NCBI GenBank assembly: GCA_017420455.1
Contig: JAFOJB010000308.1
Coordinates: 1-10,038 of the forward strand
DNA from: Blautia sp.
GTDB taxonomy: Bacteria > Bacillota > Clostridia > Lachnospirales > Lachnospiraceae
Direction of reading: 5' to 3'
Length of the DNA: 10,038 nucleotides
Part shown: piece by piece, positions 1 through 10,038 of the stretch
Position numbering within the stretch: position 1 is the first letter of the stretch
Layout of the letters: the number at the start of each line of letters is the position of its first letter
Program-made: the position numbers and the translations under genes
Notes under the pieces: model-generated
Told to the model about the DNA's origin: nothing
The model's input: the letters and a program-made list of their open reading frames with translations, nothing else
Database searches by the model: none

Positions 1-698
1 TGGGAGATTCCATGGCAGCCATCAAAAAGCTGGTCTTCGATGACCGGAAATATACCCTGGCCCAGCTCCAGGAGGCGCTGGACAGGAACTGGGAGGGCTT
101 CGACGAAATGCACCAGGATTTCCTGGATGCTCCGAAGTTCGGAAATGACGACGATTATGTAGATACCCTGGTAGCCAGATGTTATCAGTCCTTCGTGGAT
201 ATCTGCGGCGAGATCCCCACCATTCTTGGCGGCGTGCATATTCCCACAGGTATTTCCATCACCTCCCATCAGCCCGGCGGACAGCTTACCGGGGCCACTC
301 CGGACGGACGTAAATCCGGGGAGATCCTGGCGGACGGCACCATGTCCCCGATGCATGGAATGGACAAAAACGGTCCCACCGCAGTGCTGAACAGTGCCAT
401 GAAGGTGAATCAGGATCCCTTCCAGGCAACGCTGCTGAACATGAAATTCTCCCCGGCTTCCCTGAAGACAGAGGAGGACCTTGTGAAGCTCGGAGCCATG
501 ATAAGGGCTTACCTGACCAACGGCGGAAAGCATATTCAGTTCAACGTGGTGGACAACAAGACGCTCCGGGCGGCCCAGGACGATCCGAAGAAATACCGCG
601 ATCTGGTGGTCCGGGTGGCCGGCTACAGCTGCTACTTTGTACAGCTGACCCGCGCGATGCAGGACGAGGTCATCGAGCGCACCCAGCAGACCCTGTAA
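1..698 (+). CDS. Glycyl radical enzyme (PFL-like family), C-terminal part; 5' end outside window (GRE1)
   Basis: This is the C-terminal part of a glycyl radical enzyme. The reading frame is already open at base 3 (Gly-Asp-Ser before the first visible Met), so the ATG at 12 is internal: it aligns with Met571 of the complete neighbour GRE2, and about 570 residues lie off the left edge. The visible part holds the C-terminal barrel strands and the glycyl radical domain. The radical-site motif RVAGYS has its Gly encoded at 621-623, 25th residue from the end, as in the neighbour. Other family motifs are TGISIT, ATPDGR, GPTA and NGGKHIQFNVVDN. By eye about half of the visible residues match GRE2, with almost no gaps. 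The catalytic Cys is not visible, so the reaction and substrate cannot be told. It is an oxygen-sensitive cytosolic enzyme, expected to be activated by the radical-SAM enzyme at 4870. It ends 64 bp before GRE2, consistent with one operon. Confidence 0.93.
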   Translation, partial: GDSMAAIKKLVFDDRKYTLAQLQEALDRNWEGFDEMHQDFLDAPKFGNDDDYVDTLVARCYQSFVDICGEIPTILGGVHIPTGISITSHQPGGQLTGATPDGRKSGEILADGTMSPMHGMDKNGPTAVLNSAMKVNQDPFQATLLNMKFSPASLKTEEDLVKLGAMIRAYLTNGGKHIQFNVVDNKTLRAAQDDPKKYRDLVVRVAGYSCYFVQLTRAMQDEVIERTQQTL

Positions 699-762
699 AT
701 CCGGAGTACCGCGGCGCAGAAAAATCATTAAGACCATGAATAAAAAATAAAGGAGGAACGAT

Positions 763-3162
763 ATGCCTACTGAGAGAATCAAACGTATGCAGGCGGCGCT
801 GAAGGTGGATTCCTTTCCCTTCTGCGCGGAAAAACCGAAGCTGGTCATCGAGTCCTGGCGTCAGAACGAGGGCCTTCCCTCCATTCTCCGCCGGGCAAAG
901 GCGACAGCCCATTACCTGGACAACCGAACCATCTACATTGACGACGATGAACTGATCTGCGGAAACGTCGCCAGCAGGCCCATGGGTCTGGAGGCGTCCT
1001 GCTGGGGACCCTTCTGGGACGATGATGACCTGGACAGCATCCTCGAGGGAGGGCGTTATACCATTACCGACGAGGACAGGAAGACACTGAGGGATCTGGA
1101 TTCCTTCTGGGACGGACAGAGCCGCCAGATGTATGAATGGCAGGGACGTTTCTACGACGATGATCATCTGTGGCCCTTTATCCGCTCCGGCATCCTCTGC
1201 CCGCCCTGGACCAGCAAGGTGAAGGGACGCGGTTCAGGCGGCGCCGGCTTTGGCTGGGGCCTGGGAATCGGTCTTTCCTTCTTCGTACCGGATTACAAGA
1301 AGATCATCGATGAGGGGATCAAGGCCAGAGTAGATGAGGCAAAGGAAGAGCTGCACAAGCTGCGCTATGTGGACAACGACTCCTTCGACAAGGCAGATTA
1401 CCTGAAGGCCTGCATCATCGCCCTGGAGGCCATGCAGAGAATGTATCACCGCTATGGCGATGCCTGCACGAAGAAGGCGGAGGAGACAAAGGACGAGACC
1501 AGGAAGCAGGAGCTTCTTCGCATGGCAGATACCTGCCACAGCCTGGCGGAAAACGGCGCAAGGGATTTCCGGGACGCCATCCAGGCCTTCTGGTTCTACT
1601 GGATGATGATCACCCACGGAACCGTCCCGGGAGGAAGGTTCGACCAGTATATGTATCCTTACTACCGCAGGGATATCGATGCCGGAAAGATCACCGACGA
1701 CGAGGTGCTGGAGCTGATCGAGTGCCTCCGGATCAAGATCATGCAGTTTAACTTTGTTTCCGGAAACGCAAAGCAGCGTGATAAATGGGCAGGCATGGCC
1801 AGATGGCACAATTTCCTGATCGGCGGCGTCGACAGGGAGGGAAAGGACGCCTCCAATGAGCTGTCCTACCTGGTGATCAGGGCAGCCTACGAGGTACGTA
1901 CCCCTCAGTTCACCATCACCCTGCGTGTCACGGAGGATACCCCGAAGGAACTGATGATGGAAGCCCTGAAGCTGGTGAAGACAGGACTTGGAATGCCGGC
2001 CTTCGTATCGGACAAGAGCTACATCAACGGCCTGGTGGAACAGGGGGTTCCACTGGAGGAGGCCAGGGATTACGCCCTTGCAGGATGCCTTGACCTGAAC
2101 CTGCCGGGAAGATCCAGGATCAACGCCCTGGGCATGTTCATCGTGCCGAAGGTACTGGATATCGTGATGCACAACGGCGTGATGCGGGAAACCGGAGAGC
2201 AGCTGGGACCGAAGACCGGAGAGATGAAGGATTTCAGGACCTACGAGGATTTCGAGAAGGCTTTCAAGGAACAGCTGTATTACTTCATGGGCATGTACAA
2301 TGAGGAGCACAATATCCTCTGCCGGGTGACCAGGGAGATCAACAACGACGTGGTGCATTCCGCCTTCGCCTATGACGGCATCAGATGCGGCAGGGATATC
2401 GCCAACAGGAAGATGCCCTATGAGAACGCTTCCCTTCTGAATCCGGTAGGAATGATCAGCGTGGTTAATTCCATGGCAGCCATCAAGTATGTGGTATTTG
2501 AAAAACATCTTGCCACCATGGAGGAGATGTTTAACGCCATCGAGGCCAACTGGGAAGGTTATGAGGAGCTTCATAAGATCTGCGAGGATGCTCCGAAGTT
2601 CGGAAACGGCATCGATCTGGTAGATGATATCGCGGCAGATTTCTATCAGTTCTGGGTAGACAGCGCGAAGACCTTCACCACCATTTACGGTGAGCCGCCG
2701 CGTCCCACCGGGATTTCCATCACCGCGCATGCTCCGGGAGGCGGCTACACCTGTGCTACCCCGGATGGAAGATGCTGCGGACAGACCCTGCCGGACGGCG
2801 TGGTCTCTCCCGCACAGGGGACGGATACCAATGGTCCGACAGCCTCGCTTTCCAGTGCAATGAAGATCAACCAGGATTCCTTCAACGCCATGCTGCTGAA
2901 TATGAAGATCCATCCCTCCGCGCTGAAGACGGATGCGGATCTTGAGAAGCTGGGGGCCCTCATCAAAACCTATATGATGAACGGCGGAAAGCATATCCAG
3001 TTCAACGTGGTAGACAACGCCACTCTGAAGAAGGCGCAGGAGAAGCCGCAGGAATATAAGGATCTGGTGGTCCGGGTTGCCGGCTACAGCACGTATTTCA
3101 CCCTCCTGACTCCGGCTGTTCAGAACGAACTCATCGCCCGTACAGAGAATATGCTCAACTGA
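763..3162 (+). CDS. Glycyl radical enzyme of the PFL/decarboxylase/dehydratase superfamily, complete (GRE2)
   Basis: A complete 799-residue glycyl radical enzyme, normal length for non-PFL members. The start is set by AGGAGG at 751-756, 6 bases before the ATG. The PFL-like barrel domain covers roughly residues 5-650 and the glycyl radical domain about 670-782. The radical Gly is Gly774 in RVAGYS (25 residues from the end). The thiyl-radical Cys is Cys442 in AGCLDLNLPG, preceded by the family-like stretches FLIGGVDREGKDASNELSYL (about 348-367) and EEARDYA. Many GRE eliminases and decarboxylases have Cys-Val-Glu here, with the Glu acting as a base or substrate contact; this protein has Cys-Leu-Asp (Asp444), so substrate class should not be copied from them. 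No small subunits like those of benzylsuccinate synthase are seen nearby. It is cytosolic, oxygen-sensitive and needs the activating enzyme at 4870. Family membership is very secure; the substrate is unknown. Confidence 0.96.
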   Translation: MPTERIKRMQAALKVDSFPFCAEKPKLVIESWRQNEGLPSILRRAKATAHYLDNRTIYIDDDELICGNVASRPMGLEASCWGPFWDDDDLDSILEGGRYTITDEDRKTLRDLDSFWDGQSRQMYEWQGRFYDDDHLWPFIRSGILCPPWTSKVKGRGSGGAGFGWGLGIGLSFFVPDYKKIIDEGIKARVDEAKEELHKLRYVDNDSFDKADYLKACIIALEAMQRMYHRYGDACTKKAEETKDETRKQELLRMADTCHSLAENGARDFRDAIQAFWFYWMMITHGTVPGGRFDQYMYPYYRRDIDAGKITDDEVLELIECLRIKIMQFNFVSGNAKQRDKWAGMARWHNFLIGGVDREGKDASNELSYLVIRAAYEVRTPQFTITLRVTEDTPKELMMEALKLVKTGLGMPAFVSDKSYINGLVEQGVPLEEARDYALAGCLDLNLPGRSRINALGMFIVPKVLDIVMHNGVMRETGEQLGPKTGEMKDFRTYEDFEKAFKEQLYYFMGMYNEEHNILCRVTREINNDVVHSAFAYDGIRCGRDIANRKMPYENASLLNPVGMISVVNSMAAIKYVVFEKHLATMEEMFNAIEANWEGYEELHKICEDAPKFGNGIDLVDDIAADFYQFWVDSAKTFTTIYGEPPRPTGISITAHAPGGGYTCATPDGRCCGQTLPDGVVSPAQGTDTNGPTASLSSAMKINQDSFNAMLLNMKIHPSALKTDADLEKLGALIKTYMMNGGKHIQFNVVDNATLKKAQEKPQEYKDLVVRVAGYSTYFTLLTPAVQNELIARTENMLN

Positions 3163-3252
3163 TCCCGGGCTCCTGTGATCCGTTATGGTCATATTGCACA
3201 TTAATTCGGTTTTTTTCTGGCATTGCTGACCATTTCGTTAAAAAAACACTGA

Positions 3253-3261
3253 TGATATAAT
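3253..3261 (+). promoter_or_regulatory. Extended -10 promoter upstream of the carrier gene
   Basis: A perfect TATAAT at 3256-3261 is preceded by TG plus one base (3253-3255), giving an extended -10 element. At the 17-base spacer distance there is only a weak -35 (TTTCGT, 3233-3238), which is usual for extended -10 promoters. The local sequence is AT-rich and lies 70-80 bp before the carrier start codon. Transcription would begin near 3268, just before the leader hairpin. This suggests that the carrier can be transcribed separately from the GRE genes. Not tested. Confidence 0.55.
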
Positions 3262-3269
3262 AGAAAAGG

Positions 3270-3300
3270 TTTTCCGGGCGGTATCCGGCCGCCCGGAGAA
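3270..3300 (+). other. GC-rich leader hairpin before the carrier gene
   Basis: An inverted repeat with core arms CCGGGCGG (3274-3281) and CCGCCCGG (3289-3296) and a 7-base loop; flanking T/A pairs with one G-U extend the stem to 12 bp. It lies between the extended -10 promoter and the ribosome binding site of the carrier, so it would sit at the very 5' end of that mRNA. No T-tract follows, so it does not look like a standard terminator. It could protect the 5' end of the transcript, or be a terminator remnant for the GRE operon. The role is unknown. Confidence 0.5.
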
Positions 3301-3330
3301 AGCATAATCTATTGAGGAGGATCGCAATAT

Positions 3331-4671
3331 ATGTCTACAGTTATCATTTTCTTCATCGGCTTTATCCTGGCAGTGGTCATTGCGCAGAAGTTCAAGATCA
3401 ACGCCGGTATCGTAGCCATCGGTTTCGGCTTTATCCTTACCTGGATCTTTGGACACGGTCCCATTCCTGCCACAGATACCGCAGCCGCAATTCCGGCGAA
3501 CAACACTTCCGCTTCTTTCATCAGGTCGTTTCCCATAACGCTGTTCTGGAATTATTCCATGCCGGTTATCTTCTATGCCTTTGCCCAGGCCAACGGAACC
3601 CTGGAGGTCCTTGGCAAGAAGATCGCCTATGCATTCCGGAATGCCCGCTGGGCTCTGCCCATCGCGGTTTATGTGATGGCGGCGGCAGTAGCGGCGGCCG
3701 GCGCCGGTACCATGAACACCTTTATCGTTGCTCCTCTGGCATGGGGACTCTGCGTGGCAGCAGGCGTTACCCCGCTTATTGTCCCGGTAGCCCTGTGGAG
3801 CGGTTCCTTCCTTGGCGCGTTCCTTCCCTGGACCTCGAACGGCGCTCTTCTTACCGGTATGTACGAGAATGCCATCGAGGGGATGAACGGTATGGAAATG
3901 CAGGTCCGGGTCTGCGTATACTATGCCTGCCTGTCTCTGGTATTCCTTCTTGTAATGTTCCTGATCACCAGAGCATGGAGAGTTGATGAAAACGGCGCAA
4001 AGGATTTCATGAACAAGCCCGAGGATTTCAACGGACAGCAGAAATCTACGCTGATCATCATCTTCACCTGCATCGGTCTGCTTCTGGTTCCGAGTATCAT
4101 CAACCAGTTCCTGCCGAACCCGGTCTGCAAATGGATGAGCAGCAACCTCTCCATCCCTGTAACCTCCATCATCGGAATCAGCCTGGTAGCCATCCTTGGC
4201 GGCGCCAGCATCAAGGAAACCTTTGGAAAATATGTCAACTGGAATATGATCCTTCTGATTACCGGTATGGGAATGTATTGTACGCTGGCAAACACCTTCG
4301 GCGTAGTGAAGACGCTGGGAGATCTGCTCCAGAACCTGCCGGGGAACTTTATTGCTCCCGCGCTTTCTCTGATCGGCTCCGCGCTGTCCTTCGTTACCTC
4401 CGCAAGTACAGTACAGCCCATGCTCTTTACCATGGCTCCGGCGCTTGCAGGAGCAGCCGGACTTCCCGTGGCGGCGATCATCGTTGCCATCCAGATGGGC
4501 GTCGGCGTTACCTCCTTCAGCCCGGTTTCCACAGGCGGCGCAGCTGCTCTGATCGGTGCTCCGGCAGAAGTATCCAACAAGCTCTTTACAAAGATGCTCA
4601 TCATCGCTGTGTGCCTGATGGTCTGCACCGCTTTGTTCTGCGCTACTCCGCTGATCAGCGTCGGATTATGA
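3331..4671 (+). CDS. MatC-like (ion transporter superfamily) carboxylate carrier
   Basis: A 446-residue inner-membrane protein with about 12-14 hydrophobic segments (for example near 3-20, 24-41, 67-87, 107-125, 128-167, 193-213, 239-257, 275-292, 303-321, 337-358, 382-400 and 421-440). A charged cytosolic loop at about 215-238 splits it into two halves. The N-terminal third, including the FAQANGTLE stretch at about 84-92 and the small-residue AAAGAGTMNT segment, resembles the MatC N-terminal domain of dicarboxylate carriers; the second half has a matching small-residue stretch (SFVTSASTVQP). Such carriers are secondary transporters of malonate- or succinate-like acids. The start has GGAGG at 3316-3320, 10 bases upstream. 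It is placed between the GRE genes and the activating enzyme, with its own promoter and terminator-like hairpin. I infer that it imports the substrate, or exports a product, of this pathway. The exact acid cannot be read from sequence. Confidence 0.82.
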   Translation: MSTVIIFFIGFILAVVIAQKFKINAGIVAIGFGFILTWIFGHGPIPATDTAAAIPANNTSASFIRSFPITLFWNYSMPVIFYAFAQANGTLEVLGKKIAYAFRNARWALPIAVYVMAAAVAAAGAGTMNTFIVAPLAWGLCVAAGVTPLIVPVALWSGSFLGAFLPWTSNGALLTGMYENAIEGMNGMEMQVRVCVYYACLSLVFLLVMFLITRAWRVDENGAKDFMNKPEDFNGQQKSTLIIIFTCIGLLLVPSIINQFLPNPVCKWMSSNLSIPVTSIIGISLVAILGGASIKETFGKYVNWNMILLITGMGMYCTLANTFGVVKTLGDLLQNLPGNFIAPALSLIGSALSFVTSASTVQPMLFTMAPALAGAAGLPVAAIIVAIQMGVGVTSFSPVSTGGAAALIGAPAEVSNKLFTKMLIIAVCLMVCTALFCATPLISVGL

Positions 4672-4721
4672 TCAGTTCATAATGCGGACAGACCGGGAAG
4701 CCGGCCTGTTCCCCTCACGAA

Positions 4722-4757
4722 AGAAACCGCCTGGACTTTTTGGTCCAGGCGGTTTCT
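4722..4757 (+). terminator. Strong hairpin after the carrier gene, probable terminator
   Basis: Perfect 15-bp inverted repeat: left arm 4722-4736, right arm 4743-4757, with a 6-base T-rich loop. It begins 50 bp after the carrier stop codon. The T-run is in the loop and no clear T-tract follows the right arm, so termination may be partial or factor-aided; the stem could also act as an mRNA 3'-end stabiliser. Confidence 0.65.
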
Positions 4758-4806
4758 GGGTATTACAGTTCCCGGTAATTAAGAGGAAAGAATCAAAAAA
4801 GAGGTC

Positions 4807-4835
4807 TTTCCAATTTGCATTTATGCGTGTAGAAT
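4807..4835 (+). promoter_or_regulatory. Candidate promoter for the activating enzyme gene
   Basis: A -35-like TTTCCA (4807-4812, 4 of 6 consensus bases) is followed after 17 bases by TAGAAT (4830-4835, 5 of 6). It lies in AT-rich DNA between the hairpin at 4722 and the start codon at 4870, and would give a leader of about 30 bases containing the AGGAAGGAG ribosome binding site. Position after a terminator-like hairpin supports a new transcription unit here. Confidence 0.45.
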
Positions 4836-4869
4836 AAAAGATAAGCAAAAAGAGGAAGGAGATAAGACT

Positions 4870-5805
4870 ATGGCTGCTGACCGGAGCGTTTCCGCTGCCG
4901 TTTTCAATATCCAGTCATACAGTATCCACGACGGCCCGGGGATCCGTGTGACAGTGTTTGTGAAGGGATGCCCTCTTCGCTGCGTCTGGTGCGCAAATCC
5001 GGAGTCAAATCTGTCGAAACCGCAGCTTCTGTGCTTTAAGGACAAATGCACAGCCTGCGGCAGATGCATTCCGAAATGCCCGAACCATGCCATTTCCATA
5101 AAAGAGAAGGACGGGAAGGTATACGCCTTTACGGACAGGAGCCTTTGCAGGGACTGCGGACAGTGTGTGGATGCCTGTCTCAATGAAGCCCGGGAGATGG
5201 CCGGGGAGGAGATGAGCGTAGAGACCGTATTAAACAGAGTGCTGAAGGACAAGCTGTTTATGAAATCCTCCGGCGGAGGAATGACGCTGTCCGGCGGAGA
5301 AATGCTCTTCTGTCCGGATTTCTCGGAGAATCTTCTGATGGCGGCCAGGGAGGAGGGGCTCCATACTGCCGTGGAAAGCAGCTGCTTTGCTTCCCGTCAG
5401 GTGATCGACCGTGTATTCCCCCATGTGGATCTGGCTCTCTGTGATCTGAAGCACATGGACAGCAGGAAGCATCGGGAGTATACCGGAGTGCCGAATGAAA
5501 CGATCCTGGAGAACATCAGGCACATTTATCATGACCTGAAGGTGCCCATCTGGGCCAGGGTCCCCTGTATCACAGGATACAACGACGACAAGGTGAATAT
5601 CGCCGCGACGGCGAAGTTTGTCCGGGAAGAACTGGGAGAGGATGTCAGAGTCTGTCTGCTTCCCTACCATCGCCTGGGAGAATCCAAGAATGAGAGTCTG
5701 GGAAAGGATATTAACTGGTCGATCGAGATTCCCACAGAGGAGTATATGCTGGAGCTTAAGGAACTGGTGGAGAAATACGGCCTTACCGCCCAGATTGGGG
5801 GATAA
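4870..5805 (+). CDS. Glycyl radical enzyme activating enzyme (radical SAM, PflA-like with two extra 4Fe-4S clusters)
   Basis: A 311-residue radical-SAM protein that uses S-adenosylmethionine and a reduced 4Fe-4S cluster to place the glycyl radical on its partner. The SAM-cluster motif is Cys34-X3-Cys38-X2-Cys41, preceded by the family signature SIHDGPGIR (18-26). An inserted ferredoxin-like domain carries two further CX2CX2CX3C sets: Cys60/63/66/70 and Cys93/96/99/103. This insertion is typical of activases of non-PFL glycyl radical enzymes (decarboxylases, dehydratases, benzylsuccinate synthase type) and is absent from PflA itself. The SAM-binding SGGE is at 141-144. Length is normal. Start: AGGAAGGAG ends 9 bases before the ATG. 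It is the only activase in the window, so it probably serves both GRE1 and GRE2. It appears to be transcribed separately from them, between two strong hairpins. Confidence 0.96.
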   Translation: MAADRSVSAAVFNIQSYSIHDGPGIRVTVFVKGCPLRCVWCANPESNLSKPQLLCFKDKCTACGRCIPKCPNHAISIKEKDGKVYAFTDRSLCRDCGQCVDACLNEAREMAGEEMSVETVLNRVLKDKLFMKSSGGGMTLSGGEMLFCPDFSENLLMAAREEGLHTAVESSCFASRQVIDRVFPHVDLALCDLKHMDSRKHREYTGVPNETILENIRHIYHDLKVPIWARVPCITGYNDDKVNIAATAKFVREELGEDVRVCLLPYHRLGESKNESLGKDINWSIEIPTEEYMLELKELVEKYGLTAQIGG

Positions 5806-5834
5806 TGTACTTTTGACAATGTCTGTGCAGATGT

Positions 5835-5876
5835 ATGCTTCCAGTGCAGAAAGACATCCTTCTGCACTGGAAGCAT
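5835..5876 (+). terminator. Perfect 17-bp hairpin between activating enzyme and dehydratase genes
   Basis: Left arm 5835-5851 and right arm 5860-5876 are exactly complementary with an 8-base loop; G-U pairs can extend the stem outward to 5831-5880. It starts 30 bp after the activating enzyme stop. A short T-rich stretch (GTTTTG, 5881-5886) follows, so it may be a terminator or attenuator controlling read-through into the dehydratase genes. It lies 36 bp before the next start codon. The symmetric sequence could also be a protein-binding site. Confidence 0.6.
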
Positions 5877-5911
5877 GTGTGTTTTGATTCTGAAAAACAG
5901 GAGGTAGGTAT

Positions 5912-7096
5912 ATGGGAATCAGAGAGTGCGCAAGAAAGAACCCTGCGTTTCAGGCTCTTCTGGAAGCGTATACACACCGGGAGGATGCGGCCAGTGCCTT
6001 TCGTTCTTCCGGAGGGAAGGTAATTGGCGAGCTGGGGTGCGATGTGCCGGATGAGCTGATCATCGCGGCCGGGATGCTTCCTGTCCGGATCTATGCAGAT
6101 CCGGAAAAACCCCTTAAGGAAACGGACAGGTATCTGGAATATGCCTTTGACCCGGTAGTCCGTTCCCAGTTTGAAAAAATCGTGGACGGCACCTGTTATG
6201 ACCAGATCGACCACCTGGTCATCTCCAACAGTACGGATGTGGTGATCCGTATCTTCCTGTATCTTCGGGAGATGCACCGTGTGGAGCCGGAGAAGCATGT
6301 GCCCCCGGTAGAGTTCATCGACTGGCTCTTTACCCGGAACCGTCTTCATCAGGTGAGAAATGAGCATACCATCGGACTGTTTAAAGAGGCAGTGGAAAGC
6401 TGGGCGGGGCGGAGCATATCCGATGAGGAGATCCGCAGGGCCGCGGAAATCTGCAATGCGGATCGGCAGGCTCTACGCAGGATCAGCGCTCTCAGGACCG
6501 GTAAAGAGGTACGCGTCAGCGGATGTGAAGCCCTGGTGATCATCGGAAGCGCTTTCTTCATGGAGAGGCAGGAGCATACCCGGCTGGTCGGCGAGGTAGC
6601 GGCAGACGCCGCAGAATGGCCGGTTCTGGATGGCCCCAGAGTTTTCTTTACCGGGAGCGACCAGGAGGATCTTTCCGTGTATGAAAGGATTGAGGATACG
6701 GGCCTTGTCATTGTAGGAGAGGATCACAACTGGGGAGACCGTTTCTTTGACAGAGATTACAACATGGCCTATACGCCGGTCCGTGCCATTGTGGACTGCT
6801 ATATGCTGCGGGAATTCAGCAGCAAGAAGGCCTTCGTGAGCCAGAGGGTGGAGGCTCTGGACCGCTGGGTGGAAAGAACAGGAGCGCAGGCGGTCATTTT
6901 CTATACAAACCGCTATGAAGAGGCTGCCAGCTGGGATTATCCCAGCCAGAAGAAGAGCCTGGAGGAGAGAGGGATCAGGACGGTAAACTTCGCGAAGATG
7001 TCCTATCCGGTATCCGCGAATCCGGATTTCCCGGAGAAAATACAGGCCTTTTCAGAAATGCTGAAAAACGAAATTACGGGAAAGGAGGCGCATTGA
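5912..7096 (+). CDS. Smaller subunit, 2-hydroxyacyl-CoA dehydratase / benzoyl-CoA reductase superfamily (HgdB/BcrC-like)
   Basis: A 394-residue cytosolic protein of the HgdB/BcrC/FldC superfamily, in which paired subunits carry out ketyl-radical dehydration or reduction of acyl-CoA thioesters. Family features: N-terminal CDVPDELIIAAGMLPVRI (residues 43-60), a mid-region strand-turn LVISNSTDVV (102-111), and a second half with VFFTGSDQEDLSVYERIED then VIVGEDHNWGDR. Length fits the smaller subunit. The mid-region usually reads Thr-Cys-Asp, the Cys binding the 4Fe-4S cluster; here it is Ser-Thr-Asp (107-109). The C-terminal ligand position (around FYTNRYEE) also shows no Cys. Thus this subunit may lack its own cluster and support the larger partner. 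Start: AGGAGG at 5899-5904, 7 bases before ATG. The next gene begins 1 base after its stop. Superfamily is secure; dehydration versus reduction cannot be decided. Confidence 0.88.
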   Translation: MGIRECARKNPAFQALLEAYTHREDAASAFRSSGGKVIGELGCDVPDELIIAAGMLPVRIYADPEKPLKETDRYLEYAFDPVVRSQFEKIVDGTCYDQIDHLVISNSTDVVIRIFLYLREMHRVEPEKHVPPVEFIDWLFTRNRLHQVRNEHTIGLFKEAVESWAGRSISDEEIRRAAEICNADRQALRRISALRTGKEVRVSGCEALVIIGSAFFMERQEHTRLVGEVAADAAEWPVLDGPRVFFTGSDQEDLSVYERIEDTGLVIVGEDHNWGDRFFDRDYNMAYTPVRAIVDCYMLREFSSKKAFVSQRVEALDRWVERTGAQAVIFYTNRYEEAASWDYPSQKKSLEERGIRTVNFAKMSYPVSANPDFPEKIQAFSEMLKNEITGKEAH

Positions 7097-7097
7097 G

Positions 7098-8435
7098 ATG
7101 GCAGAGGGTGCTTCAAGATCCGGCGTAGTGAAGAAGCTGAAGGCCACCTCCATTGCCAGCGCGTACCAGAAGGAGTGGTTCGCGGGGCTGAAAAAGAGAG
7201 TGGAGGCAGGCGAGGATTTTGGATATCTTAACGCGGATGTTCCCATGGAGATCCTGCGGGCCATGGATATTCCCTTTGTGGTGAACCAGTGGTGGGCCGC
7301 CATCTGCGGGGCAAAGAGGATGACCAGGAAATACTTCGGCCTCCTCCGGGACGCCGGCTACAGGGACGATCTTTGCAGCTACTGCGCCACAGCCTTTGCG
7401 GAGAGCCTGGATCCGGACGATCACAAGGTGGACGCGGAGGGGAATCCCATGGGACCCTGGGGAGGGCTTCCCGATCCTACCCTGGCGATCACCCGTCTTA
7501 CCTGTGACTGCCAGAGCAAGATCTTCGAGCTGTTTGCCCGGAACCACGGCGCGAGCTTTTATGCCATAGAGAACACGGTGCCCAGAAAGGTTCCGCTGAA
7601 GTGGTTCGAGATGGCTCCCGACGACTGGGAGGAGCTGTACGATACGGACCGTCTGGATACAGCCGTGGAGGAGCTGAAGGAACTGATCCGTTTCCTGGAG
7701 ATGAAGACAGGGAAAATGTTTGACATCAACGAGCTGGAGCGGGTAATGAACCTGATCAATGAGCAGGAGGGCTGGTACAAAAAGATCCGGGATCTCATCG
7801 CTTCCTGCCATCCCGTGCCGGTTACGGTGGTGGATACCATCAACGCCGTGATGCAGGCCCAGTGGCAGCGTGGAACGGAGTGGGCGGCAGGCCACGCAAA
7901 AGGCCTGTACGAGGAGATCAAGGCGCTGGCCGACAGAGGAGAGGCTGCAGTGCCCAACGAAAAATACCGTCTCATGTGGATCGGACGGGGAATCTGGCAC
8001 GACTTCGGCTTCTACCAGAGATTCGAACAGAAGTACGGCGCGGTGTTCATGTGGTCCATGTACCTGGCCATGGGCGCTGACGCCTACATCCGCCATCATG
8101 TGGAGAAGGATCCCCTCCGGGCGCTGGCGGCAAGATATATCGGTATGGAGGATTTCCTCCATATGCCTCCCTGGAACAGCCAGTGGTACCTGCAGCAGGC
8201 CCGCCAGAATGATATCGACGGCGTCGTCTACATGGTGCCGGAGAACTGCATGCAGGCCGTGGAGGGCAGCTATTTTATCAGGAAGACGCTGGAGGATGCC
8301 GGCATTCCGGTCCTCACCTTCAACGCGGATCCGGTGGATCCCCGGAAATGGAGCGCCGAGACCATGACAGGGCTGGTGGAGGATTTCATCGAAAAACGGG
8401 TGATCCCCATGAAGGAAGCCAGGGAAGCCAGGTAA
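7098..8435 (+). CDS. Larger subunit, 2-hydroxyacyl-CoA dehydratase / benzoyl-CoA reductase superfamily (BcrB/HgdA-like)
   Basis: A 445-residue partner of the preceding protein, about the length of BcrB/BzdO-type subunits. N-terminal FGYLNADVPMEILRAMDIPF (41-60) matches the superfamily start, with Asn45 near where others have Cys. Cysteines that could hold a 4Fe-4S cluster are Cys93/Cys96 (DLCSYC), Cys136 in the classic TCD motif (135-137, with Cys138 following), and Cys384 in the C-terminal stretch VVYMVPENC, followed by GIPVLTFNAD (402-411), the usual end-strand. It therefore looks like the cluster-bearing, catalytic half. AAAGGAGG (about 7081-7088) lies inside the end of the upstream gene, 9 bases before the ATG, so the two are translationally linked and probably form a heterodimer. 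The substrate would be a CoA thioester, likely made by the CoA-transferase at 8582. The required ATP-driven electron-donor activator is not in the window. Confidence 0.88.
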   Translation: MAEGASRSGVVKKLKATSIASAYQKEWFAGLKKRVEAGEDFGYLNADVPMEILRAMDIPFVVNQWWAAICGAKRMTRKYFGLLRDAGYRDDLCSYCATAFAESLDPDDHKVDAEGNPMGPWGGLPDPTLAITRLTCDCQSKIFELFARNHGASFYAIENTVPRKVPLKWFEMAPDDWEELYDTDRLDTAVEELKELIRFLEMKTGKMFDINELERVMNLINEQEGWYKKIRDLIASCHPVPVTVVDTINAVMQAQWQRGTEWAAGHAKGLYEEIKALADRGEAAVPNEKYRLMWIGRGIWHDFGFYQRFEQKYGAVFMWSMYLAMGADAYIRHHVEKDPLRALAARYIGMEDFLHMPPWNSQWYLQQARQNDIDGVVYMVPENCMQAVEGSYFIRKTLEDAGIPVLTFNADPVDPRKWSAETMTGLVEDFIEKRVIPMKEAREAR

Positions 8436-8461
8436 ATCCTGCGGCAGGGTACTGCCTGATT

Positions 8462-8552
8462 CATCGCATGGCAGCCAGAAGCAGAATCGTCATCCTGCAG
8501 CATTGCACGACAGCCAGAAGCAGAATCGTCATCCTGCAGCATTGCATGACAG
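8462..8552. repeat. 39-bp tandem direct repeat, about 2.3 copies
   Basis: Two adjacent 39-base units, 8472-8510 and 8511-8549, differ at one position only (C8508 versus T8547). A ten-base motif CATYGCAYGR occurs at 8462-8471, 8501-8510 and 8540-8549, exactly 39 bases apart, and each is followed by CAG, so the array has a degenerate partial copy on each side. Each unit contains a PstI-like CTGCAG palindrome and a weak GCAG...CTGC dyad. It fills most of the 146-bp gap between the dehydratase and CoA-transferase genes. It could be a recent slippage duplication, a set of regulator sites, or a fragment of a dispersed intergenic repeat. No copy is seen elsewhere in the window. Confidence 0.9.
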
Positions 8553-8581
8553 TATAGTCTTATGAAGAAGAGGAGAATAAA

Positions 8582-9799
8582 ATGGGAAAAGGACCACTTA
8601 CAGGATACAGAGTTCTTGATATGACACAGTTTGAATCCGGCACGGTCTGCACAGAGACGCTGGCATGGTTCGGCGCGGAGGTGCTGAAGGTGGAACGGCC
8701 GGTAGCCGGGGAGCTGGGAAGATATTCCCAGGAGAATCCAGGGGTCGACACCTATGGCTTCCTCACCATGAACATGAACAAAAAGTCCATCACCTGCAAC
8801 GCCAAGAAGCCGGAGGGCCTTGCGCTTCTGAAAAAGCTTCTGGAAAAATGCGATGTAGTGGTTGAAAACATGGGACCGGGTTCCATGGACCGCCTGGGTC
8901 TTTCCTATGAAGCCTGCAGGGAAATTAACCCGAAGATCATCTACGCGAGTCTGAAGGGCTTCGCGGTGGACGGCCCCTACAGGGACTATCCGGCCTTCGA
9001 TCCGATCGCTACCCATACCGGCGTGATGGTATCGGCCAGCGGCCTTCCGGAGCAGCCCATGAAGGCTGGTATCTCCGTGGCGGATTCCGGTACCGGCACA
9101 GCCCTGGCCATGGCCATCATCGCTGCCCTTCTTCAGAGGGAGAGAGAAGGCATCGGCCAGAGAGTCGACATCGCCATGCAGGATTTCATGATCGGTCTTT
9201 CCCGTTCCCAGTGGGAGCCCTACTATGCCAACGGAAAACCGAACCGCCGGGTAGGAAACGGCATGCCTCTGGAGGATGTGGCTCCCTCCGATACCTATCC
9301 CTGCAAGCCCTTCGGCCCCAACGATTATGTGCACATCTACTGCAGCCGTCATCCCGGCAGCAAACAGTGGGACAACCTGTGCGATGTCATCGGCCGGCCC
9401 GATCTGAAGCAGGACGCCTGCCCGCAGATGGCGACGCCCAGGGAACGGTTCAAAAACCGGGATATCTGCGACAACGCCATCAAGGACTGGCTGAAGGAGC
9501 ACGATAAATTTGAGGCCATGGACCTTCTGTGCAAGGCAGATGTGCCCGCCGGCGCGCTTCTGGACTGCGCGGACATCACGAATGATCCCCAGTATGAGAA
9601 GAGAGGCATGATCGTAGAAATTGAGCATCCTCAGAGAGGAAAGGTAAAGCTTCCGGGCTTCGCACCTCGTCTTTCCGAAAACCATATCGATTTCAAATGC
9701 AGTCCCGCTCTCGGCGGCAGCAATGAGGAGATCTATAAAGGACTGCTGGGTCTTTCCGATGCAGAGATCGAGGAGCTGAAAGCTGCGAAGGCGATCTGA
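8582..9799 (+). CDS. Class III CoA-transferase (CaiB/BaiF family)
   Basis: A 405-residue family III CoA-transferase, the same length as CaiB, which moves CoA between carboxylic acids through an aspartyl anhydride/thioester. The N-terminal Rossmann part includes LTGYRVLDMTQ and WFGAEVLKVERP (29-40), then NMNKKSI, the family stretch FAVDGPYRDYPAFDPIA, and ISVADSGTG. Asp168 in that last motif lines up with the catalytic Asp169 of CaiB and formyl-CoA transferase. It is followed by REREGIGQRVDIAMQD, another strong family signature. The fold is an interlocked dimer in the cytosol. Start: AGGAG at 8571-8575, 6 bases before ATG. It follows the dehydratase pair, just as CoA-transferase genes accompany (R)-2-hydroxyacyl-CoA dehydratases in amino-acid fermentation, so I infer that it activates the acid those subunits act on. 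Donor and acceptor acids are unknown. The next gene starts 8 bases after its stop. Confidence 0.95.
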   Translation: MGKGPLTGYRVLDMTQFESGTVCTETLAWFGAEVLKVERPVAGELGRYSQENPGVDTYGFLTMNMNKKSITCNAKKPEGLALLKKLLEKCDVVVENMGPGSMDRLGLSYEACREINPKIIYASLKGFAVDGPYRDYPAFDPIATHTGVMVSASGLPEQPMKAGISVADSGTGTALAMAIIAALLQREREGIGQRVDIAMQDFMIGLSRSQWEPYYANGKPNRRVGNGMPLEDVAPSDTYPCKPFGPNDYVHIYCSRHPGSKQWDNLCDVIGRPDLKQDACPQMATPRERFKNRDICDNAIKDWLKEHDKFEAMDLLCKADVPAGALLDCADITNDPQYEKRGMIVEIEHPQRGKVKLPGFAPRLSENHIDFKCSPALGGSNEEIYKGLLGLSDAEIEELKAAKAI

Positions 9800-9807
9800 C
9801 AGAGAAT

Positions 9808-10038
9808 ATGAAGAAAAGAAAAGGCGGCTTTTTAAAAAGCCTTCGCTTCCGGATCATGATCATTCTTGTCATCATGGGCATTGTACCCAGTGTGATCGTT
9901 CTGAGAGCAGTCATTACGAATTACGCGGACAGGACAATTGCCAACCGGAGTGGTCATGTAAGGAAGCAGTGCGAGATCCTCAGCACTCTTCTGATCCAGG
10001 AAAACTATCTGGATTCTCCCTATTCTGCCCCGGCTACA
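9808..10038 (+). CDS. N-terminus of a membrane sensor protein, probably a histidine kinase; 3' end outside window
   Basis: The first 77 residues of a protein running off the right edge. It begins with a basic stretch (MKKRKGGFLKSLRFR) followed by one clear transmembrane helix (about residues 16-34, IMIILVIMGIVPSVIVLRA). After that comes a soluble segment starting ITNYADRTIANRSGHVRKQC that looks like the start of an extracytoplasmic sensor domain. This pattern, including the Pro in the helix, is common in clostridial sensor histidine kinases; a chemoreceptor or cyclic-di-GMP protein is possible. The ribosome binding site is weak (only AGAGA before the ATG), suggesting translational coupling to the CoA-transferase ending 8 bases upstream. 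I infer that it senses a compound of this pathway and that a response regulator may follow, but neither kinase domain nor regulator is visible. Confidence 0.6.
   Translation, partial: MKKRKGGFLKSLRFRIMIILVIMGIVPSVIVLRAVITNYADRTIANRSGHVRKQCEILSTLLIQENYLDSPYSAPAT

Follow-up and report, generated by a model that had tools for sequence, protein, structure and literature searches.

Glycyl radical enzymes share gut clostridial genomes with a CoA-transferase and a PF06050 pair lacking beta-cluster sites

Given the gene content of a 10,038-nucleotide stretch of Blautia sp. DNA (assembly GCA_017420455.1, contig JAFOJB010000308.1; hereafter the window), we examined how its glycyl radical enzymes (GREs) relate to the CoA-transferase and the two PF06050 proteins encoded downstream of them. 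The window is contig C270 of a 78%-complete genome of 593 contigs (G000), and genes are cut at both of its ends. Its + strand carries seven genes, the first of them cut, plus one gene start, in the order GRE1 end, GRE2, MatC/CitMHS carrier, GRE activase, HgdC5, HgdB6, CaiB-type CoA-transferase (CaiB) and partial membrane protein, where HgdC5 and HgdB6 are our labels for the two PF06050 subunits. Pfam matches of the named genes lie far above chance level. We find that the GRE module and the CoA module (HgdC5-HgdB6-CaiB) likely belong to a common catabolic island or regulon, and we propose from the sequences that HgdC5/HgdB6 is not a canonical ATP-activated ketyl-radical dehydratase, since relay-cluster sites are missing from the beta-type subunit. 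The best explanation, which we advance tentatively, is a two-module fermentative catabolic island of gut Clostridia that combines a CoA-dependent non-ketyl dehydratase with GREs.

Co-occurrence of the GRE and CoA modules

GRE2 loci were collected in one pattern-based scan, which gave 19 confirmed loci from 24 stretches; genes in these and all other fetched loci were called with a script of our own. The CoA module lies within the fetched flank of two of the 19 (L038 and L040), while six of the loci (L041, L047, L050, L053, L055, and L056) are short or break off close to GRE2. Several lower-identity loci (L045, L046, L049, and L050) have PrpD-family, MatC, or PucR-type neighbors instead. The same-strand order GRE1-GRE2-...-HgdC5-HgdB6-CaiB recurs in the window, in L038/L064, and in L040, and among named records L038, from a Blautia-labelled roe-deer caecum genome, is the nearest one to carry this gene set. 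Some loci overlap within one genome (L038 with L064, and L039 with L123), and the 29 CoA-module loci considered below likewise come from fewer genomes, G1153 contributing three and G1148, G1151, and G1156 two each.

A preliminary description of the window, which linked the GREs to the CoA-transferase and PF06050 pair, had taken homologous GREs occurring mostly without the other genes as grounds for abandoning that link. Adjacency alone seems to give this outcome, but a genome-wide search overturns it: HgdB6 is encoded in 17 of the 18 GRE2-bearing genomes, at 75-93% identity in 16 and at 56% in one. The background is far lower, with HgdB6 in 5 of 397 family genomes, 2 of 391 class genomes, and 2 of 392 order genomes (the last queried with the L065 homolog), each count including the window's genome. 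Compared with the family background from which the window's genome had been removed (4/396), the 18 GRE2 genomes give a Fisher P of 2e-25. Within the family sample of 397, HgdB6 is present in five genomes and GRE2 in three, with both in G000 and G750. In the genus (64 genomes), HgdB6 and GRE2 are each found in four, with both in three (P = 4e-4, including the window's genome). Among 60 relatives of G1149, HgdB6 occurs in five, of which four carry GRE2 at the threshold used (P = 1e-5 as counted); the fifth carrier, G1160, has a GRE2 that is split over two contigs (L054 and L055) and falls below threshold. Four of these five HgdB6 carriers were already known GRE2 carriers, and G1164 was not chosen for GRE2.

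Three genomes place both modules in a common island. In G1164, PucR-CitMHS-HgdC5-HgdB6-CaiB-AMP ligase-MATE is followed by activase, PucR, MatC, PrpD, GRE2, PucR, GRE3, and MatC. Contig C24 of G750 reads activase-GRE1, MatC, PrpD-GRE3, activase-GRE2, PGA_cap genes, URO-D, CitMHS, and CaiB-HgdB6-HgdC5. The two modules lie 11-13 kb apart in these two genomes. On contig C5 of G1160, the CoA module with CitMHS and PGA_cap is followed by an acyl-CoA dehydrogenase, MatC, GRE3, and GRE2.

Several observations weigh against a shared function. Adjacency is narrow (2/19 loci); the CoA module or HgdB6 occurs without GRE2 in G031, G256, G654, and G747, and GRE2 without HgdB6 in G035 (= G1145) and G804. 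The carriers of both genes are mutually related, so that the Fisher values overstate independence, and the family sample alone, without the window's genome, gives just P = 0.02. Separate carriers and PucR-type regulators often accompany the two modules, and in the window a strong terminator-like hairpin (5832-5879, + strand; 20 pairs, loop of 8, T-rich tail) separates activase from HgdC5, and thus the GRE part from the CoA part. The terminator scan as a whole was not above chance (8 terminator-like sites against 8.6 expected from shuffles); the other seven sites have 5-8 pairs. No obvious counterpart of the hairpin emerged when the equivalent gaps of L038 and L040 were folded for minimum energy.

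The narrow adjacency, the genomes with one gene but not the other, the separate carriers and regulators, and the hairpin would suit two separate pathways that share a niche, with GRE2 and HgdC5-HgdB6-CaiB degrading different gut acids and being gained or lost together through lifestyle. We consider such an arrangement unlikely, in view of the 17/18 co-occurrence, the matching presence and absence among the 60 relatives, the islands of G750, G1160, and G1164, and the same-strand order shared by the window, L038/L064, and L040. On these grounds the link drawn in the preliminary description holds, and the two modules probably serve a shared process.

A beta-type subunit without cluster ligands

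HgdC5 (5912-7096, + strand; PF06050, 5e-46) and HgdB6 (7098-8435, + strand; PF06050, 1e-52) are the two PF06050 (HGD-D) genes of the window and resemble beta-type and alpha-type subunits, respectively. Both subunits are matched in all 29 module loci, and a heterodimer is predicted. In the standard dehydratase, as outlined in a review (PMC11574389), electrons pass from an ATP-driven archerase to the beta cluster, then to the alpha cluster, and finally give rise to a ketyl radical.

The beta-cluster cysteines are absent from HgdC5 in 28 of 28 aligned rows (27 distinct loci, L040 and L066 being the same contig), at alignment positions where three canonical partners, taken from related genomes, have Cys. 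The three positions are instead occupied by D/E/G, T/S, and E/D in every row. This alignment kept HgdB6 sequences longer than 350 residues and HgdC5 sequences longer than 300 residues; it left out the 238-residue HgdC5 piece of L143 and, as an HgdC5, the fused frame of L138. That frame (L138:428-2911, in the genome of L048) spans 827 residues with an HgdB6 match of 55% and an HgdC5 match of 44%, lies beside a cut CaiB, and suggests a natural fusion of the two subunits.

The closest solved relatives of HgdC5 are BzdN and HadC, and the best-scoring ones are BzdN for HgdC5 and MbdO for HgdB6. The pair could accordingly be imagined as a benzoyl-CoA reductase-like enzyme, or another reductase, with an aromatic or hydroaromatic thioester as substrate. 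BzdN holds (PMC11971306) its [8Fe-9S] double-cubane cluster with six cysteines: 36, 73, 100, 263, 293, and 327. Cys36, Cys263, Cys293, and Cys327 face non-Cys consensus residues in HgdC5, while Cys73 and Cys100 fall outside the aligned stretches. Cys43 of the window HgdC5 is one residue off the position of BzdN Cys36; a Cys is present there in five of eight aligned HgdC5 sequences, the window's among them. Together with the lack of an archerase match nearby in the 29 module loci, the missing cysteines make a reductase most improbable.

Alpha-cluster ligands and a cysteine-less clade

In HgdB6, alignment to MbdO, HadB, and BzdO matches Cys93, Cys136, and Cys384 of the window protein with alpha-cluster ligands, and Cys96 and Cys138 are further candidates. 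All six cysteines checked are kept in 128 of 146 aligned HgdB6 rows, with the homolog rows comprising the best 120 of at least 1504 and the best 120 of at least 1211 matches. The other 18 rows carry Asn/Asp at position 93, Asp/Cys at 96, Gly (16 rows) or Ser/Cys at 136, and Asp at 384. With further loci added, Asp384 is found in 22 of 167 rows, which group in a single clade (support 1.0) that lies nested within the cysteine-bearing sequences; in this clade, one row, P0252, retains Cys136. Named examples are Oribacterium sp. HCP28S3_H8 (P0074) for the rows that keep the cysteines and Oribacterium sp. C9 (P0250) for those without them. Some of the 22 rows share a genome; a 19,254-base contig, for instance, is the source of both P0244 and L137. 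The beta partners in loci of this clade (L065, L129-L131, and L137) have Asp in place of Glu at the last of the three beta sites, a state also seen in the distant L139-L142.

Having lost cluster sites, the pair could have given up catalysis of the usual kind and now help CaiB, either as its chaperone or as a partner that binds CoA. The association with the transferase is compatible with such a role: the order HgdC5-HgdB6-CaiB is found in 23 of the 29 module loci, and CaiB also adjoins the fused form in L138. We regard this role as very improbable. Mean column identity in HgdB6 is 83% over eight sequences, which suggests a working site, and because the replacements in the cysteine-less clade are consistent at high identity, they suggest a working, altered site rather than decay.

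The alpha subunit differs from canonical enzymes at a further position. Gln64 is found in all 30 HgdB6 rows opposite the Glu of two canonical alpha rows, preceded by Asn in 29 and Tyr in one, with a register that may be off by one residue. This Glu belongs to the alpha-subunit PEN motif and is, we assume, catalytic.

An alternative close to the preliminary description, which saw a radical acyl-CoA dehydratase-like pair here, is a canonical radical 2-hydroxyacyl-CoA dehydratase whose archerase is encoded at another place in the genome. The adjoining CoA-transferase, the retained alpha-type ligands of the window protein, and an acyl-CoA dehydrogenase gene beside the pair in three relatives would all fit, as would the BcrAD-type ATPases encoded elsewhere in all eight genomes searched; activation from elsewhere is thereby possible, which counts against our preferred explanation. 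Three such ATPases (in L080, L081, and L083) lie beside their own canonical pair or subunit; these stretches were fetched around ATPase hits and are thus no unbiased control for the archerase search. That search, by tblastn with one archerase query, gave no match in the 29 module loci. Scores of the window pair against the HadB and HadC models reach about one-eighth of the cut-offs. Combined with the beta ligands missing throughout, the Gln in place of Glu, and a whole clade without alpha ligands, these results render a canonical dehydratase quite improbable, and the radical character assigned to the pair in the preliminary description is not supported by the comparison. The two radical chemistries of that description may therefore be one. 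The source annotation "2-hydroxyacyl-CoA dehydratase" for several of these proteins is probably misleading. Given a shared process, we think it fairly probable that the PF06050 pair is a non-ketyl dehydratase.

GREs with a Cys-x-Asp loop

GRE2 (763-3162, + strand) is complete, with 799 residues (PFL-like, 3e-156; Gly_radical, 2e-33), and has its radical glycine, Gly774, in an RVAGY loop and its catalytic cysteine, Cys442, in the loop GCLDLNLPG (within GCLDLNLPGRS). GRE1 was also reported in the preliminary description; the window holds its last 231 codons (3-698, + strand; PF01228 and PF02901: PFL-like 1e-28, Gly_radical 2e-32), including its own RVAGY loop, and the rest lies elsewhere. Over residues 595-825 of the L038 GRE1, which is complete, the window part is 90% identical. 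A GRE1 front of 443 residues that ends at the catalytic cysteine is found on contig C392 (= L088) of the same genome, where it adjoins a PucR-type regulator gene and is 92% identical to the L038 GRE1; 125 residues are unaccounted for between contigs C392 and C270. The activase (4870-5805, + strand) has a radical S-adenosylmethionine (SAM) CxxxCxxC motif at residue 34, here CPLRCVWC, and a ferredoxin-like domain, and scores 343 bits against TIGR02494 (cut-off 174). It is the putative cognate activase of GRE2. The features by which the glycyl radical superfamily is recognized, namely an RVxGY loop, a central Cys, and a radical SAM activase, are all present among the window genes.

The residues that follow the catalytic cysteine set these enzymes apart. 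A loop of the GC[LV]D-x-N-x-PG type is present in 118 of the 120 best GRE2 homologs among the matches listed, with two lacking a pattern match; the corresponding loop is GCLDANLPG in full-length GRE1 and GCVDGNIPA in GRE3. Of five aligned solved chains, by comparison, glycerol dehydratase, choline lyase, diol dehydratase, and 9rco have GCVEPQ at this loop and 7e7l has GCVLHQ. GRE2 shares its Gly loop, Cys loop, and type of activase with the glycerol and propanediol dehydratases, choline trimethylamine-lyase, and hydroxyproline dehydratase, but has GCLD rather than GCVEPQ at the catalytic cysteine.

GRE2 reached no NCBIfam equivalog cut-off, its top score being 491 bits against large-subunit cut-offs of 994-1150, and it scored 521 bits against the subfamily model TIGR01774 (cut-off 678). 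Full-length GRE1 of L038 scored at most 509 bits and likewise reached no equivalog cut-off. Both enzymes stay below half of every equivalog cut-off shown (CutC, HypD, HpsG, HpfG, IAD, HPAD, and PFL), and the Cys-x-Asp clade is therefore, as far as the NCBIfam libraries go and judging by sequence, uncharacterized. The best solved-structure match of GRE2 is glycerol dehydratase (1r8w), and its identification as a known GRE was rejected. Placement of GRE2 in a cluster of known function unrelated to CoA chemistry would have spoken against the preliminary description; in the NCBIfam and solved-structure comparisons, GRE2 fell into no family of known function.

Other GRE-related genes came to light in these searches. 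The RVxGY pattern was not found in two GRE-like proteins (L004:1498-3945 and L052:12459-14861), which possibly have a variant glycine loop. The window's own genome also contains, at L086:6402-12823, a row of genes for PGA_cap, PrpD-family, GRE3 (89% to the GRE3 of L039), and URO-D-like proteins.

The CoA-transferase and CoA-linked neighbors

CaiB (8582-9799, + strand; PF02515 CoA_transf_3, 2e-97) has YfdW and formyl-CoA:oxalate CoA-transferase as its nearest solved relatives. It scored 324 bits against the formyl-CoA transferase equivalog (cut-off 504), and its class III assignment rests on the PF02515 match. Asp168, a position computed from the sequence, is presumably the catalytic residue.

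In L125, L127, and L128, the module runs directly into an acyl-CoA dehydrogenase gene, which speaks for the CoA logic of the process that we propose. The L127 dehydrogenase scores best against the acryloyl-CoA reductase model (423 bits, cut-off 640), and a gene for an electron transfer flavoprotein (ETF) comes next. At that position L128 carries a gene of equal size, and the L125 sequence stops at the dehydrogenase, so that the ETF is confirmed in L127 alone. Upstream of GRE1 in G002 lie genes for an AMP ligase and an acyl-CoA dehydrogenase, along with two for ETF. That the dehydrogenase is found in just three of the 29 module loci counts against the proposed process.

Relatives of PGA_cap (PF09587) are encoded near the CoA module in 11 of the 29 loci (L062, L063, L124, L126, L129-L131, L133, L134, L136, and L138); the L129 protein matches the lasso-peptide epimerase MslH weakly (99 bits, cut-off 700). 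L148 contains an AlaDh/flavoprotein pair, which we left out of the model and which, we assume, resembles dipicolinate synthase.

Other features of the window

The CitMHS/MatC-type organic acid carrier is encoded at 3331-4671 (+ strand; PF03600 CitMHS, 8e-12; PF07158 MatC_N, 3e-11). A URO-D-like gene present in L038, L039, and L040 is absent from the corresponding part of the window (4672-4869), and L040 has no match to the MatC carrier; the cargo of the operon is therefore variable. The gene start at the end of the window (9808-10038, + strand) encodes the first 77 residues of a membrane protein that may be a sensor. A sensor is what the preliminary description made of it; the membrane protein is there, but it matches no Pfam or NCBIfam model. 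It is probably outside the conserved module, since other genes come after CaiB in L038/L064. The HgdB6-CaiB gap is largely taken up by 2.1 copies of a 39-bp unit (97% match; 8472-8552), and in several relatives these two genes almost touch.

A two-module island and its relation to known systems

Our preferred explanation, the two-module island, starts from gene content, co-occurrence, ligand loss, and the nested ligand-less clade, all of which were computed directly. The two modules of the island are usually in one genome and at times in one locus. Module 1 would comprise the Cys-x-Asp GREs, their activase, and a carrier of their own, joined in relatives by PrpD-family and URO-D-family proteins, and would cleave or dehydrate a hydroxy acid; the GREs, with the PrpD- and URO-D-type proteins where present, may prepare or process related hydroxy acids. 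For module 2, HgdC5-HgdB6-CaiB, the order of reactions, the mechanism, and the class of substrate that we infer would be as follows. CaiB, going by its family, would put CoA on an imported acid, and the PF06050 pair would then form an enoyl-CoA by eliminating a group that is most likely water. In a few relatives, an acyl-CoA dehydrogenase (with ETF) is encoded next door and could reduce this enoyl-CoA, and CaiB could recycle the CoA. Aconitase uses its [4Fe-4S] cluster as a Lewis acid, and by analogy a single alpha-type [4Fe-4S] cluster with an open site may act in this way in HgdB6. The clade without cluster cysteines might use an Asn/Asp/Asp site in place of the cluster. Quinate or shikimate as the substrate was a guess and was set aside; gene evidence for it is nil, and the literature search was empty.

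The closest parallels are (R)-2-hydroxyisocaproyl-CoA dehydratase (HadBC) and (R)-phenyllactate dehydratase (FldBC), whose gene arrangements we take to pair the dehydratase with a CaiB-type HadA or FldA. As in those systems, a PF06050 alpha/beta pair adjoins a class III CoA-transferase, a few relatives of the window continue with an acyl-CoA dehydrogenase and ETF, and the alpha ligands are kept in most rows examined. Unlike them, the window-type pair has no beta ligands, has Gln for the alpha Glu, has no archerase that was found beside the module, includes one clade without alpha ligands, and has GRE partners in the genome. The class I benzoyl-CoA reductases BzdNO and MbdNO are the best sequence matches among solved structures, but the window pair has no conserved Cys at comparable double-cubane positions, and archerase-like subunits were not found nearby. 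The lactate/acrylate pathway of Anaerotignum propionicum employs a CoA-transferase, a PF06050 dehydratase, and an acryloyl-CoA reductase with ETF. A CoA-transferase, a PF06050 pair, and an acryloyl-CoA reductase-like dehydrogenase are likewise combined in L125, L127, and L128, with ETF in L127; the module differs in having subunits without radical-relay sites, a class III transferase, and GREs in the genome.

In keeping with the preliminary description, which recognized no described pathway with this set, we found no published account of this gene set, or of PF06050 pairs without cluster sites, in the open-access literature, covered mostly as titles and abstract starts. Two candidate reports were set aside. 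The benzene "Magic" cluster (PMC13101534) includes type III CoA-transferases among its Magic proteins, and no GRE or PF06050 protein was seen in the accessible part of that article; in the accessible part of a uric acid study (PMC12507026), "glycyl radical" appears only in one reference.

If the explanation is correct, the PF06050 fold would perform CoA chemistry without the ATP-driven electron injection that has been thought to define it, and relatives with and without the alpha-cluster cysteines would constitute a natural experiment on the role of each cluster. An uncharacterized GRE clade would at the same time be tied to recognizable CoA chemistry, and a single series of substrate screens could then reveal the function of each. 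Taken as a whole, a more far-reaching history is conceivable though doubtful, in which the dehydratase fold was stripped stepwise, first of the beta cluster and then, in one clade, of the alpha cluster, to yield Fe-S-free CoA-dependent dehydratases that may act downstream of a new Cys-x-Asp GRE clade when hydroxy acids of plant or host origin are fermented in animal guts by an undescribed route.

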